Assembly (NCBI RefSeq): GCF_021021475.1
Contig: NZ_JAINWL010000001.1
Coordinates: 620,001-684,000 of the forward strand
DNA length: 64,000 nucleotides
DNA from: Citromicrobium bathyomarinum
GTDB taxonomy: Bacteria > Pseudomonadota > Alphaproteobacteria > Sphingomonadales > Sphingomonadaceae
Reading direction: 5' to 3'
Made by a program: the position numbers and the translations under genes. Shown here piece after piece: positions 13,725 through 17,046 of this stretch (within the stretch, counting starts at the first letter, position 1; every line of letters begins with the position of its first letter). Below the pieces are notes generated by a model. It was not told the origin of the DNA and searched no databases. It was given only the letters and a program-made list of their open reading frames with translations.

Positions 13725-14128
13725 ATTAGTCCTTCGGTTAAACTAACCGGCCTCGTCAGGTCCGTTTGCCCTTCACAGCCGGATACGGCGCGAAAGCGCC
13801 ACCGGCTCAGGACAAACGGGCTTGAGCGGGACCGTCCATCTTGCTGGATGGCTTCGCGTGTGCGTTCGAATGAAGTGTATCGGGGTCGTCCATCGCGAGT
13901 CCCCGCGGAAGCTGGGACCTTGCCTCTGCCCGGCGCAGCGCCTGCGGCACGAGACCCCAGCGTGCGCTGGGGATCACGAACAAACGAGCCTGAAACGCTC
14001 CACCCGAACACGCCCGCAAGGGGCCATCCGGATTACTCTGACGGCTGCCCGGCCCTGGTGGGGCTCCGAAAAACGAAAAGGCCATCGCGAGTCGCGACAG
14101 CCCCGGGACAAAACCGGCAATGTTCAGC
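13725..14128. other. Spacer upstream of rpsL with REP-like palindrome
   Basis: No convincing gene is present between rpsL and the hypothetical gene at 14177. The region contains the palindrome CCCCAGCGTGCGCTGGGG (13955-13972), a motif style common in intergenic repeats of sphingomonads. The leader and promoter of the str operon should lie here, but no clear -35/-10 pair was found. Confidence 0.5.
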
Positions 14129-14204
14129 TCTATAAGCCTTGGCGGGAGCTAGCCCTCGCCTCGGTTGGTGGTGCGCTTAGTTGGATTTGGGGGCTGGGTC
14201 AAGG
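14129..14204. repeat. Imperfect direct repeat, copy 1
   Basis: The 63 bp from 14142 (GCGGGAGCTAGCC onward to TCAAGG) match 15182-15243 at about 84 percent, with one single-base gap. Weaker similarity begins a little earlier at a TATA-containing stretch. Copy 1 covers the last codons and the stop of the hypothetical gene at 14177-14635. Confidence 0.75.
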
Positions 14205-14635
14205 CCGTCGGTTGGCGGCGCGGCGCTCAATTGGCGCAAGTGTTCGGCAAGCGCCAACCCCAGATCCTGGTAGCGATACGGGCCGACGTGATATTCGGGT
14301 ACCGATCTCTCGGCCACCCCGAAAGGCAGGGTCGGCCCGGGCAGGTCGGGCGGATCAAGTGCGCCGCCCTCATCTTCCCACGCCTTCATCGGCTCCGCTG
14401 GCTCGCCAGCCTCCGATGGTTCGGTGTAGGAGCCATAGATGATGGTCGCGTGCCCCTGCGGCGGGGCGGGATTGCTGGCGGCACCGGCACTCGGTCGCAC
14501 GTCGCGCAACGCGCGGATGCGCTCGGCATATTCGGCAACCTTGGCGAAATGGTCGTCGCGCGCGGCGGTATCGCCGGAAGCACTGGCCCGCATGACTGCG
14601 GCCTGGTGCGCGTGAAGCAGTTCGTTCAGTTCCAT
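14177..14635 (-). CDS. Hypothetical protein with proline-rich C-terminal half
   Basis: A 152-aa protein that I do not recognise. The N-terminal 50 residues look helical (MELNELLHAHQAAVMRAS and HFAKVAEYAERIRALRDV). The middle and end are Pro/Gly-rich and acidic. No signal peptide or membrane segment is visible. The ATG has a good AGGGGG Shine-Dalgarno 6 nt upstream, which supports it as a real gene. It lies downstream of the cold-shock-like gene on the same strand. Confidence 0.6.
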   Translation of the reverse strand: MELNELLHAHQAAVMRASASGDTAARDDHFAKVAEYAERIRALRDVRPSAGAASNPAPPQGHATIIYGSYTEPSEAGEPAEPMKAWEDEGGALDPPDLPGPTLPFGVAERSVPEYHVGPYRYQDLGLALAEHLRQLSAAPPTDGLDPAPKSN

Positions 14636-14719
14636 GGAAAACCCCCTAAGTGCCGTGCAAACCGGTAAGGCAGCGGCCCCGGGCGCAGCGCATGCGCCGG
14701 ACCCGGGGCCGCCATCGGA

Positions 14720-14932
14720 TCAGGCCTTCTGGGGCTCCAGGTTGGTGGCCTGCGCCTTGGCACCGCTGACCTGCTTCGTTTCGTATCCGAAGCGCTGGCC
14801 CTGCTTGGGCTCGGCAGCGTCATCCTTGAGGTCGGCCTTGGAGAAAGCGAGCGCATCGCCGCCCTTTTCGGGGGTGATCATGCCACTGCCCTTGCCGGTG
14901 TCGTAGCTGTGAATCTTGCCATAATGAGTCAT
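14720..14932 (-). CDS. Cold-shock-domain-like protein with degenerate RNA-binding motifs
   Basis: A 70-aa protein aligned by eye to the cold-shock domain: GKIHSYDTGKGSGMITPEKGG corresponds to the CspA region [20 protein letters not shown]. The aromatic residues of RNP1 (KGFGFI) are replaced (KGSGMI), and RNP2 (VFVHF) reads ALAFS. The start at 14932 matches the family N-terminus. The fold is probable; nucleic-acid binding by the classic aromatic platform is doubtful. Confidence 0.75.
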   Translation of the reverse strand: MTHYGKIHSYDTGKGSGMITPEKGGDALAFSKADLKDDAAEPKQGQRFGYETKQVSGAKAQATNLEPQKA

Positions 14933-15181
14933 GATTTTATCTTTCGATTTCGCGCAGGCGTTCATCAGCGACCGCTTGTGCGCGGGCTAAGAGGCGAAAT
15001 GGAAAGAAGGAAGGGCAACTGGCCCTCGGGACCGTCGATCGCGACTGGTAGCTGACTAATAAATGGTGCCAATTCGCTCAGTTACAAGGTGCTGGTAGGA
15101 GCTACAGGCAAAGAAAACGGGTTATTACGTTTCTCGACGGGCTTGGGGTATTACTTTCTATGGTCCGCTGTATAGGCGCCC
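14933..15181. other. Spacer between cold-shock-like gene and repeat copy 2
   Basis: About 250 bp with lower GC than the flanking genes and no credible gene. It must contain the promoter for the minus-strand cold-shock-like gene, but I see no clear consensus pair. Confidence 0.45.
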
Positions 15182-15243
15182 GCGGGAGCTAGCCATCGCC
15201 TCGGTTGGCGGTGTGGGTGATTGGATTTGGAGGTGGGTTAAGG
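15176..15243. repeat. Imperfect direct repeat, copy 2, at the 3' edge of the RT gene
   Basis: This copy matches 14142-14204 (see copy 1). It ends exactly over the stop codon and last codon of the reverse-transcriptase gene. The arrangement is consistent with the RT cassette having been joined to DNA derived from the end of the neighbouring hypothetical gene. Confidence 0.7.
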
Positions 15244-16155
15244 CGCACTCTGACCATCATGCCCTTCGACCTGACGCCTCTGCGCAATACGCCCTGCGAT
15301 CTTCCGGTCGATCATTTCCCGCTCCTTCTCGCGAGAAGCCTGGCGTTGCGCTCGCAGTTCCGCCAACCGCTTGAACTGACGATTAGGCAATCGAAGACCA
15401 CCGTTGGTCACGATTACGCCGGTAATATCGGCGGGACGGCAAAAGAGACCAACCTCCTTGTCTCGGCGCAATCGCATACCGTGCTTGTGTACTATTTTCT
15501 TCACACCCCAGACGGCCTCACCCGGGATCACCGGGCCAGAAATTGTTAGGTCATCAGCGTAGACACTGTGAATGAGCCCCCGCTCGTCAACCAAACGCGC
15601 GATCTCATTCCACATTCCAACCTTTGAGTAGAAGGCTACGACCGGACTACAGGGCGAGCCTTGCGGCAAAGAACCATCCTTGGTGACCAATGACGTCAAG
15701 ATCGATGCAACATCCGGCGGGCAGTGGAGTTCATTCAAAAACATTCCGGCAACTGCCGATGTGGTGCAACTTGGGAAATAATCTGCAATATCCAGCATGC
15801 AGAAAGCGGTCGAGCCAAGATGTCTCGCCGCATTATCGACATATGATCGACCTTTGACCGGACTAAAGAGCCAATCAGGGGGGCGCGCACTGGATAATAG
15901 TCGGCCTATTCGGCGTTGAACCTGCTTGAGATGCGGATGCGGGATATCGATAGGCCGGAATGCGCGAGCCTCATCCGCATCCGGCTCTTCCGAGCGCCAC
16001 TCGTCACCCTTTTTGGACTTCCATCGCCGGACGTAAGGCAAGTCTAAATTTAAAGCAGCAGCCAGTGCCTCAGGCTTGAGCAACAAACGTTCAGCTAATA
16101 GCCTCCGATTTGAAATGCGAAATAGCGCATTTCCTCTAAGTGAAGCTACCTTCAC
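15238..16155 (-). CDS. Retron-type reverse transcriptase
   Basis: A 305-aa RNA-directed DNA polymerase. Visible motifs in order are: IDIPHPHLKQVQRRI (about 69-83), the retron NAxxH motif as NAARH (108-112), the catalytic Asp in LDIADYFPSC (D122), LPQGSPCSP (163-171), YADD (199-202) followed by LTIS, and ITGVIVTNGG (244-253) at the place of the retron VTG triplet. There are no maturase or integrase domains, so it is not a group II intron. GTG start overlaps the XRE stop (GTGA). The gene has clearly lower GC than its neighbours, suggesting transfer. Confidence 0.92.
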   Translation of the reverse strand: MKVASLRGNALFRISNRRLLAERLLLKPEALAAALNLDLPYVRRWKSKKGDEWRSEEPDADEARAFRPIDIPHPHLKQVQRRIGRLLSSARPPDWLFSPVKGRSYVDNAARHLGSTAFCMLDIADYFPSCTTSAVAGMFLNELHCPPDVASILTSLVTKDGSLPQGSPCSPVVAFYSKVGMWNEIARLVDERGLIHSVYADDLTISGPVIPGEAVWGVKKIVHKHGMRLRRDKEVGLFCRPADITGVIVTNGGLRLPNRQFKRLAELRAQRQASREKEREMIDRKIAGRIAQRRQVEGHDGQSAP

Positions 16156-16451
16156 CTTCCCTCTTCCGAGCGCGCCTCAATAAGCTGCAACAAGCTTAGA
16201 ACTTTTGAAGCGATGTTTTTGCGAATTCCTTCGCCAGATTTCGCACTTTGCACATTCTCTGAAAAGAAGATTATCTCAGATACCGGAATGCCGAATTCAG
16301 AAGAATATTTCTCCAGTAAATCAATAGAAGGGTTCTTCATTCCCTTCTCTATTTCAGAGATATGAGAACTTGAAGCCCCTAGGCGACTTGCAAGCTCATT
16401 CTGCTTCAGGTCGTTGAAAACTCGAATGAGCCGGAGAGCCTCTCCTAACAT
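16152..16451 (-). CDS. XRE-family helix-turn-helix regulator of the retron locus
   Basis: A 99-aa protein with a Cro/CI-type HTH: LRLIRVFNDLKQNELASRLGASSSHISEIEKGMKNPS covers helices 1-4 (about residues 6-42). A short C-terminal helical region follows. The ATG at 16451 is chosen because AAGGAG lies 6 nt upstream; an upstream GTG at 16496 lacks such a site. It is coupled to the RT by a 4-bp overlap. It may bind the palindrome at 16982-16998 and repress its own operon, or act as the effector, as proposed for retrons that pair an RT with an HTH protein. Confidence 0.88.
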   Translation of the reverse strand: MLGEALRLIRVFNDLKQNELASRLGASSSHISEIEKGMKNPSIDLLEKYSSEFGIPVSEIIFFSENVQSAKSGEGIRKNIASKVLSLLQLIEARSEEGR

Positions 16452-16492
16452 GGTAAACTCCTTTCCAAGCTCAGCTAGATATAGGTTAGCGA

Positions 16493-16681
16493 TCACTCAA
16501 AGAATTCGAAAACTCTCAGCGCGAACCGTAAGACACGATAGACACAGAAACCGACTTTGAGGGCCAGTCTCAGAGTTCGCGGATTTCTGAGCTGCCCCAG
16601 AAACCCGTTACGCTCTCGCCCGATTTTACTCGGTCGATCACGCGATCGCTGTTGTCGGTGTGAGTCAGAAGAATCAGACAT
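16493..16681 (-). CDS. Small basic peptide with hydrophobic C-terminal helix
   Basis: A 62-aa ORF with AAAGGA about 8 nt before its ATG. The N-terminal 25 residues are Ser/Arg/Asp-rich and polar. Residues 31-62 alternate Arg/Lys with Leu/Val/Phe (TLRLALKVGFCVYRVLRFAL and so on), which suggests an amphipathic, membrane-active helix. It lies 41 bp upstream of the XRE gene in the same direction. No homologue is known to me. It could be a toxin or effector of the locus, or a chance ORF overlapping non-coding RNA. Confidence 0.5.
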   Translation of the reverse strand: MSDSSDSHRQQRSRDRPSKIGRERNGFLGQLRNPRTLRLALKVGFCVYRVLRFALRVFEFFE

Positions 16682-16970
16682 ATCTAATTCCTTTCTTCGT
16701 TGGCCCCAGCACACAGCCCACCGCGGACTGCACTGACTGGGGGCTCTCACCCAACGAAGAGTCGGACCCGACAACTTCACCAAATATCTAGACGCGATAG
16801 CGGCTCTAGCTATCGCGTCTGCTTCCCCCGCGCGCCCTCGGACCCCCGGGGCCCGGCCTTGAGCGGAAAAAACGGTAGAGGCTAAGCCTCCTCGCTCCAT
16901 AATCGAAGCTCAGTATGAGAACTTGTTCCGAAGAACTCACATTCCCTACATAGCGGACGCTTTCCGCATT
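16682..16970 (-). ncRNA. Candidate retron msr-msd non-coding RNA region
   Basis: About 290 nt of non-coding, hairpin-rich sequence lies between the inferred transcription start and the small peptide gene, which is where retrons carry their template RNA. On the minus strand it contains GUUC-UUCG-GAAC (16936-16925), GAGGCT/AGCCTC followed by a T6 run (16890-16867), a perfect 12-bp stem AGACGCGATAGC/GCTATCGCGTCT with a 7-nt loop (16790-16820), and TCTTCGTTGG/CCAACGAAGA enclosing 47 nt (16694-16760). I could not fix the a1/a2 pairing or the branching guanosine, so the boundaries are provisional. Confidence 0.55.
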
Positions 16971-16976
16971 GCAAGG

Positions 16977-17005
16977 ATTATATTCGCTCTGAGCGAATTA
17001 TTTTC
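16977..17005 (-). promoter_or_regulatory. Promoter with palindromic operator for the retron-like operon
   Basis: A perfect -10 hexamer TATAAT lies at 16982-16977 (minus strand). Exactly 17 nt upstream is a weak -35 (GAAAAT). The spacer is filled by the palindrome ATTCGCTCTGAGCGAAT (16982-16998, 8-bp arms around one base). A dyad placed between -35 and -10 is a typical repressor site. The nearby XRE protein is the obvious candidate ligand, by inference. Confidence 0.65.
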
Positions 17006-17046
17006 ATCTGTCCTACTCCGCCACGTTCTGCAATCTACCTGCGGCT

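Follow-up and report, generated by a model that had tools for sequence, protein, structure and literature searches.

The 64,000-nucleotide stretch of Citromicrobium bathyomarinum DNA analyzed here (the window) carries a retron, a bacterial reverse-transcriptase element of a class linked to phage defence, on its minus strand at 15238-17008. Judged by its genes, the locus is a type VI retron. Comparison with relatives suggests that the retron RNA runs into the start of a peptide gene, and that a2, one arm of the inverted repeat bounding this RNA, is coding sequence. We hold at about even confidence that in this type VI retron the retron RNA and the messenger of a putative toxin are one and the same molecule. 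In order of transcription the locus consists of a palindrome over a TATAAT sequence, a hairpin-rich leader, a gene for a 62-amino-acid peptide, an XRE gene and the reverse transcriptase (RT) gene. Its features, with helix-turn-helix as HTH, open reading frame as ORF and Shine-Dalgarno sequence as SD, are:

16982-16998, no strand assigned: operator-like palindrome ATTCGCTCAGAGCGAAT at the promoter (family-wide motif, genome search)
16977-16982, minus: -10 box TATAAT (sequence)
16934-16941, minus: a1, 5' arm of the inverted repeat, TGTGAGTT, pairing with a2 (swap tests, covariation, operator spacing)
16930-16921, minus: conserved CGGAA.AAGT beside a1, with a candidate priming G at 16929/16928 whose role is putative (alignment A3)
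16776-16933, minus: msr-like part, 158 nucleotides (nt), several hairpins (alignment A3, geometry script)
16790-16820, minus: hairpin AGACGCGATAGC...GCTATCGCGTCT (97.5% of cells paired, both sides changed at 8 of 12 pairs)
16768-16775, minus: x, GTTGTCGG, pairing with x' inside the peptide ORF (covariation, swap test)
16667-16767, minus: predicted msd template, 101 nt, a long hairpin followed by the SD and start codon of the peptide gene (covariation, span conservation)
16659-16666, minus: a2, 3' arm of the inverted repeat, GACTCACA, peptide ORF nt 16-23 (swap tests)
16651-16658, minus: x', CCGACAAC, peptide ORF nt 24-31, directly 3' of a2 (covariation, swap tests)
16493-16681, minus: gene for a small cationic amphipathic peptide, 62 amino acids, net charge +8, proposed toxin (ORF kept in relatives, codon pattern)
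16152-16451, minus: XRE/Cro-CI HTH protein, 99 amino acids, from ATG 16451 (PADLOC HTH_VI, Pfam HTH_3; start from SD and alignment)
15238-16155, minus: type VI retron RT, 305 amino acids, GTG start (PADLOC RT_VI, motifs, PDB sequence matches)

Pairing between the leader and the peptide gene

Two leader segments were found to pair with neighbouring segments within the peptide ORF, and the resulting helices, a1:a2 and x:x', cross as a pseudoknot. A first-pass annotation of the window had predicted a structured non-coding RNA (ncRNA) ahead of the peptide gene. The structure is there, but not as a separate block ending at 16682, since it extends past that position to about 16651 inside the ORF.

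The same annotation had proposed comparative folding as a check. In ten close relatives (alignment A3) six helices taken from locus L001 were counted, giving 476 cells and 48 pairs. Standard pairs were found in 95.4% of the cells, compared to 35-47% when the partner was slid as a control, and 29 of the 48 pairs had changed on both sides (shuffled mean 14.0, 0/500). The pairing thus goes beyond what chance would give. Helix x:x' was paired in 100% of cells, with four of its eight pairs changed on both sides, and the msd stem (arms 16759-16751 and 16703-16695, helices 5-6) was 97% paired with changes on both sides at 9 of 15 pairs.

A swap test, comparing cognate with swapped leader-ORF pairing, was significant for x:x' in these ten relatives (57/20000) and was then widened to 49 non-redundant loci. 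Both helices stood out in the larger set (z 5.6 for a1:a2 and 10.1 for x:x', each 0/5000 permutations), while control pairing against ORF nt 61-97 gave no excess (z 1.0 and -0.3). When the leader was scanned in sliding segments, signal was found at -300 to -200 (z 3.4 and 3.3) and at -100 to -40 (z 7.5), more weakly at -60 to 0 (z 2.2), and nowhere between. Joint scores of 30 or more, with a2 directly adjoining x', were reached by 40 of the 49 loci; permuted sets gave 15.0 ± 2.9 loci, and the highest of 5000 gave 26. The windows and limits of the 49-locus swap and joint-score tests were chosen after the helix list had been viewed. Thirteen phage and plasmid loci, fetched later, were judged by less strict limits (leader to -180, x score 15), and 11 of them had the a2/x' layout (0/20000 permutations). 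These 13 are not fully independent: L116 is closely related to L036 of the earlier set, and L109 closely resembles L112.

Divergent groups carry unrelated letters at like places, such as CTTCAGCATCG with TGATGCTGAGG in L007. Further pairings of this kind are TTCTCGTTCAG with CTGAACGAGAA in L036 and CACAATCGA with TCGATTGTG in L013. A structured RNA bounded by a1/a2, as expected of a retron, was found across the family, more weakly in the ten closest relatives, with a2 inside the ORF.

The spans between the helices plausibly fit the sizes of msr and msd. Positions of a1, x, a2 and x' were set by script, whose choice of a1 is doubtful in some loci, e.g., L089. On these positions x and a2 are separated by 67-119 nt (median 86) in 55 of 62 loci, and a1 and x by 120-220 nt (median 168). 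The x-to-a2 span contains a hairpin, the ribosome-binding site of the peptide gene and its start codon, and its widest predicted pair closes 3-17 nt before the start codon in 45 of the 55 loci and runs past it in ten. Retrons prime from the 2'-OH of a conserved guanosine adjacent to the a1/a2 repeat, and host RNase H1 is needed for proper termination (excerpt of PMC8989520). By analogy the conserved CGGAA.AAGT near a1 is a candidate priming site. If the priming rule is applied here, the RT would begin in the peptide codons and copy the start codon and the ribosome-binding site.

The peptide gene

The peptide ORF runs from ATG 16681 to a stop at 16493 and is preceded by an SD, aaagga, at 16694-16689. 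A candidate small ORF was found directly before the HTH gene in all 65 relatives with enough upstream sequence, and likewise in 13 of 13 phage and plasmid relatives. In the 49 non-redundant loci the peptides are 38-66 amino acids long (median 57) and without exception net positive (median charge +9). Their most hydrophobic 19-residue window falls in the later part of the peptide; its mean hydropathy is at least 1.0 in 37 of 49 and at least 1.6 in 14, which suggests amphipathic peptides more than clear transmembrane ones. A chance ORF was rejected on two grounds, both taken from 18 related pairs. Beyond ORF nt 45 the differences at codon positions 1/2/3 number 170/117/238, an excess at the third position, and the ratio of nonsynonymous to synonymous differences (pN/pS) is below 1 in 17 of the 18 pairs, the exception being L006/L037 at 1.05.

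The peptide of the window had no model match in Pfam, NCBIfam, PHROGs or PADLOC, and the peptides of four relatives had none in NCBIfam, PHROGs or PADLOC; the type VI models of PADLOC are for RT and HTH. From its character and setting we infer that the peptide is a toxin. In L010 (931-1047) the peptide ORF stops early, at 38 amino acids compared to 61 in its relative L047, which is a possible natural loss. The Shewanella phage MuM16-1 (L113, 824-970) has a 48-amino-acid cationic ORF before the regulator gene that is unannotated in its record.

Identity of the retron and its relatives

The best PADLOC model for the RT was RT_VI with 269.8 bits, followed by RT_III-A with 123.2 bits. Retron RTs are known by the motifs NAxxH, YxDD and (V/I)TG. 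The protein of the window contains NAARH, LPQGSP, YADD and ITG, all as first annotated, and Pfam gives RVT_1 as the sole domain at E up to 0.1, in line with the earlier statement that intron-associated domains are lacking. Residues D122, D201, D202, N108 and H112 are invariant across 29 aligned RTs. The ITG variant had been offered as a mark of a new subtype, which does not hold, as I, V or L occupies that place among relatives. A profile of the 29 RTs matched the retron RTs Ec67, Ec86, Ec78 and Kva2 among PDB sequences at 2e-39 to 8e-28. Entries labelled as group II intron RT reached E 1.6e-6 or worse, compared to 3e-38 for Ec86, and with RVT_1 as the only Pfam domain a group II intron RT was rejected; the maturase, diversity-generating retroelement or Cas partner domains that would mark RTs of group II introns, such retroelements or CRISPR were not found in Pfam. 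The proposed placement in a phylogeny also agreed with type VI: of the 69 RTs in one tree, the 49 that have an HTH partner form one side of a branch with 100/100 support, against 20 other RTs that were fetched with the same profile, so that the tree is not a full retron phylogeny. The same genome contains a second retron RT (L002, C1:448617-449447), which matched PADLOC RT_II-A with 379 bits and then RT_I-A with 289 bits.

The HTH protein matched PADLOC HTH_VI with 109.8 bits and Pfam HTH_3. Its listed ORF, 16152-16496, begins with GTG. This start was rejected on the SD and the alignment with relatives; the likelier start, as in relatives, is ATG 16451 behind aaaggag, which gives a protein beginning MLGEALRLIRV. 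HTH and RT genes share four nt (GTGA), and with a cognate XRE gene adjoining the RT gene and a small auxiliary protein gene in the operon, the latter a type VI feature according to the excerpt of PMC8541194, the locus has the gene content of a type VI retron. The first-pass description of a retron-like locus with ncRNA, peptide, XRE protein and RT was in this way borne out as type VI, and so were its 4-bp overlap of the HTH and RT genes, its hairpin-rich DNA with a promoter of its own ahead of the peptide gene (TATAAT at 16982-16977) and its visibly lower GC content, which is 55.5% in kilobase 15-16 and 49.6% in kilobase 16-17 compared to 56.7-70.9% in the remaining 62 kilobases of the window. 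It had also suggested a new subtype from the small peptide and the coupled gene order. Since a small ORF precedes the HTH gene in 65 of 65 relatives, both are the usual layout in the relatives examined and a new subtype by gene content was rejected. An Rfam scan of the whole window returned tRNA only and no retron RNA family.

Relatives were collected in several searches. Among 396 genomes from the order, 74 had a PADLOC RT_VI match at 1e-3, many of these matches being weak; at 1e-50 the model gave 19 in 397 family genomes and 8 in 385 class genomes. A search of genome contigs with the single RT of the window found no relative, while an alignment query found 35 loci in named genomes, in addition to 5 in viral contigs. 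The HTH gene lies beside the RT gene in 67 loci, copies included (L008 was left out as a duplicate of L001); L071 and L074 are cut by a contig end, hence the 65 loci scored for the small ORF. The six phage loci come from phages of Burkholderia, Escherichia, Pasteurella, Yersinia, Klebsiella and Shewanella, and the seven plasmid loci from Acetobacter, Scytonema (cyanobacterial), Sphingobium, Azospirillum, Agrobacterium, Microvirga and Acinetobacter. A fourteenth, from Ligilactobacillus (L117), was left out because its record begins partway through the locus. In the Microvirga terrae plasmid pR24_2 (L120, 2369-3328) a gene annotated with a TIR domain lies directly behind the type VI RT gene.

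Promoter and operator

The palindrome WTTCGCTnnnAGCGAAW occurs once in the genome of the window, at the retron promoter. Upstream of a1 in the 49 loci, TTCGCYnnnRGCGAA was found without mismatch in 24, with at most one mismatch in 34 and with at most two in 43, where shuffling led us to expect 0, 0.05 and 1.35 loci. At most two mismatches were also found in 11 of the 13 phage and plasmid loci, and in 23 of 26 loci with a1 written out. In these 23 the operator begins 47-60 nt (median 57) ahead of the first nucleotide of a1, and the operator of the window begins 56 nt before a1. This spacing played no part in choosing a1 and therefore supports its assignment. In the window the operator abuts the -10 box, which fits self-repression, and the HTH protein may repress its own promoter through the palindrome.

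Genomic setting

Comparison with related genomes revealed that the flanks of the site stop near 14204 and resume near 17008. The site lies 5' of genes that we take, from their translations, to be rpsL, rpsG and fusA. Two repeats of about 78 bp border the segment neighbouring the retron:

14127-14204: first copy of the repeat
15160-15237, no strand assigned: second copy, left edge of the retron cassette (blastn against hotspot loci)

The same-species genome G476 has a different type VI retron, of another clade (L042/L099), between the same flanks. Other members of the genus carry at this site a Drt6 RT (L100), GmrSD and RelA/SpoT genes (L101), a 259-amino-acid gene that no Pfam model matched (L102), a PifA-like KAP NTPase accompanied by other genes (L103), DUF4062 (L104), a UG36 RT (L105) or a ThsB-like TIR protein (L106). 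From these contents the retron site (14127-17008) looks like a defence hotspot, and its varied defence genes are the best indirect evidence for an anti-phage role.

The segment between the repeats encodes a cold-shock-like protein of 81 amino acids (14720-14965, minus strand) with weak similarity to type V retron effectors (PADLOC CSD_V 26.2 bits; NCBIfam Se72 21.2 bits, cut-off 82). It was set aside as effector because its gene belongs to the neighbouring segment, and G439 carries that segment at 94% identity with a TIR gene in place of this retron. Beside it a gene of 152 amino acids (14177-14635, minus strand) had no match in NCBIfam or PADLOC.

Proposed mechanism and alternatives

If a single molecule serves as both retron RNA and toxin messenger, the RT would prime at the guanosine beside a1:a2 and copy the RNA just 5' of a2. 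Copying would run backwards across peptide codons 5 to 1, the start codon, the ribosome-binding site and the hairpin, perhaps to x. The resulting multicopy single-stranded DNA (msDNA) would be antisense to the start of toxin translation. Each round of reverse transcription would mask or, with RNase H, destroy one toxin message, and reverse transcription and peptide translation would compete for the same RNA. The toxin would be kept off until a phage disturbs the complex: phage action on RT, msDNA or RNase H would free translation, the peptide would attack the inner membrane, and the cell would stop or die before phage release. The HTH protein would repress the promoter. In these steps msDNA, toxicity and defence are assumed; what the comparison shows is the operator-like palindrome at the promoter, the leader with its msr-like part and msd-sized hairpin, an a2 arm placed inside roughly codons 4-12 of the conserved cationic amphipathic peptide, and a second helix x:x' that adjoins a2 and crosses a1:a2. 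As a tentative extension, which we judge possible but somewhat doubtful, reverse transcription may itself be the antitoxin. The toxin messengers of type VI retrons would be self-consuming, with the RT writing antisense DNA over the start codon, and a phage that stalls the RT, removes msDNA or blocks RNase H would switch the toxin on without any protein-protein release.

Several observations weigh against a shared molecule. Of the six helices counted in the ten closest relatives, a1:a2 is the least well paired (83.6%), and in the swap test on these relatives it was not significant (2468/20000). The joint layout was missed in nine of the 49 loci (L010, L011, L015, L016, L017, L047, L066, L083, and L085). 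With a lower x limit L010, L011, L047 and L085 pass, and L015-L017, one clade whose member L014 does fit the joint layout, still fail. The two misses among the phage and plasmid loci are L110 and L119, and the helices picked by script are doubtful in L045, L046, L048 and L089. Swapped leader-ORF pairs also reach a score of 30, in 30% of cases in the 49-locus test and 27% in the 13-locus test, so that the evidence rests on the set and not on single loci. The hydropathy limit of 1.6 is reached by so few peptides that they need not be transmembrane. Both the priming site and the limits of the msd were assigned on the model of other retrons.

In the published retron model a complex of RT, ncRNA and RT-DNA sequesters the effector (excerpt of PMC12548924), and no overlap of RNA and effector gene is then needed. 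Ordinary tripartite control of this kind, with RT, msDNA and HTH protein binding the peptide or a peptide assembly and the overlap of a2 and the ORF merely saving space or timing expression, agrees with the peptide ORF standing ahead of HTH and RT in 65 loci. We consider it rather unlikely; it leaves unexplained both the two helices with like spacing inside the ORF in most relatives and the SD and ATG within the x-to-a2 span. That the pseudoknot brackets SD and start codon would also be expected if RNA structure alone controlled translation, as in type I toxin-antitoxin messengers: the pseudoknot would close the peptide start, and the RT would be a sensor that opens or closes the fold and makes little msDNA. 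The first nucleotide of a2 falls about 12-24 nt inside the ORF in most loci, close to the edge of the footprint of an initiating ribosome. However, the RT has kept its catalytic aspartates, and the order of a1, hairpins, a hairpin stretch of 67-119 nt and a2 is that of msr and msd; control by structure alone is to us unlikely.

Least probable, and in our judgement very unlikely, is a peptide that is no toxin but a leader or accessory, setting the expression of HTH and RT or anchoring the complex at the membrane. Its moderate hydropathy in most members and the failure of all Pfam, NCBIfam, PHROGs and PADLOC models to match it would suit such a role. The pN/pS values below 1 in 17 of 18 pairs, and a cationic-amphipathic character that is constant over very divergent sequences, would not; nor would the site being a defence hotspot, and between the cassette ends at 15238 and 17008 there is no other effector candidate.

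Relation to known systems

In gene content the locus does not differ from the type VI retrons of the scheme of Mestre et al. (2020), represented in PADLOC by RT_VI and HTH_VI: it shares the RT clade, the XRE gene directly upstream and overlapping, the small protein gene and the structured leader. Titles and abstracts among the matches listed held no description of an a2 inside a toxin ORF or of an msd over a toxin start, which is weak evidence of absence, and the literature entries among the matches listed held none of a crossing x:x' helix or a common operator of type VI retrons. The phage-borne type VI-like retrons of Peduoviridae and of Shewanella phage MuM16-1 (excerpt of PMC8541194) have the same gene order with a small ORF before the regulator gene, and five of six phage loci have the a2/x' layout, L110 being without it. 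They differ in RT identity (30-37% among the matches listed) and in being carried by phages, whereas the retron of the window lies in a chromosomal hotspot. With canonical retrons, e.g., Eco1/Ec86 (excerpt of PMC8989520), the locus shares an a1/a2-bounded RNA with msr and msd, RT homology and a candidate G near a1. It differs in that a2 is coding and that a second helix crosses a1:a2. To our knowledge, the ncRNA of canonical retrons excludes the start codon of the effector.

Type I toxin-antitoxin messengers of the hok kind have a short membrane-active toxin, a long structured leader, pairing of 5' and 3' parts over the translation start and an antisense RNA as antitoxin. The retron resembles them in its long structured leader, in the 5'-3' pairing across the translation start and in its putative short membrane-active toxin, whereas its proposed antisense would be DNA made by the RT on the message. 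In DRT2 an RT and a neighbouring pseudoknotted RNA likewise link reverse transcription to a toxic gene, which is assembled by reverse transcription after infection (excerpt of PMC12039810). Here, in contrast, reverse transcription would prevent translation of the toxin.

For type VI as a whole, the comparison yields a candidate effector, a model of the RNA that includes its ends, an operator and a principle of control that can be tested, over a range that covers Pseudomonadota, one Ignavibacteriota metagenome-assembled genome, a cyanobacterial plasmid and phages. If the proposed arrangement is true, a hunt for msDNA confined to the non-coding leader would misplace it, and copying of the toxin message would be a further mode of toxin control by reverse transcriptases.

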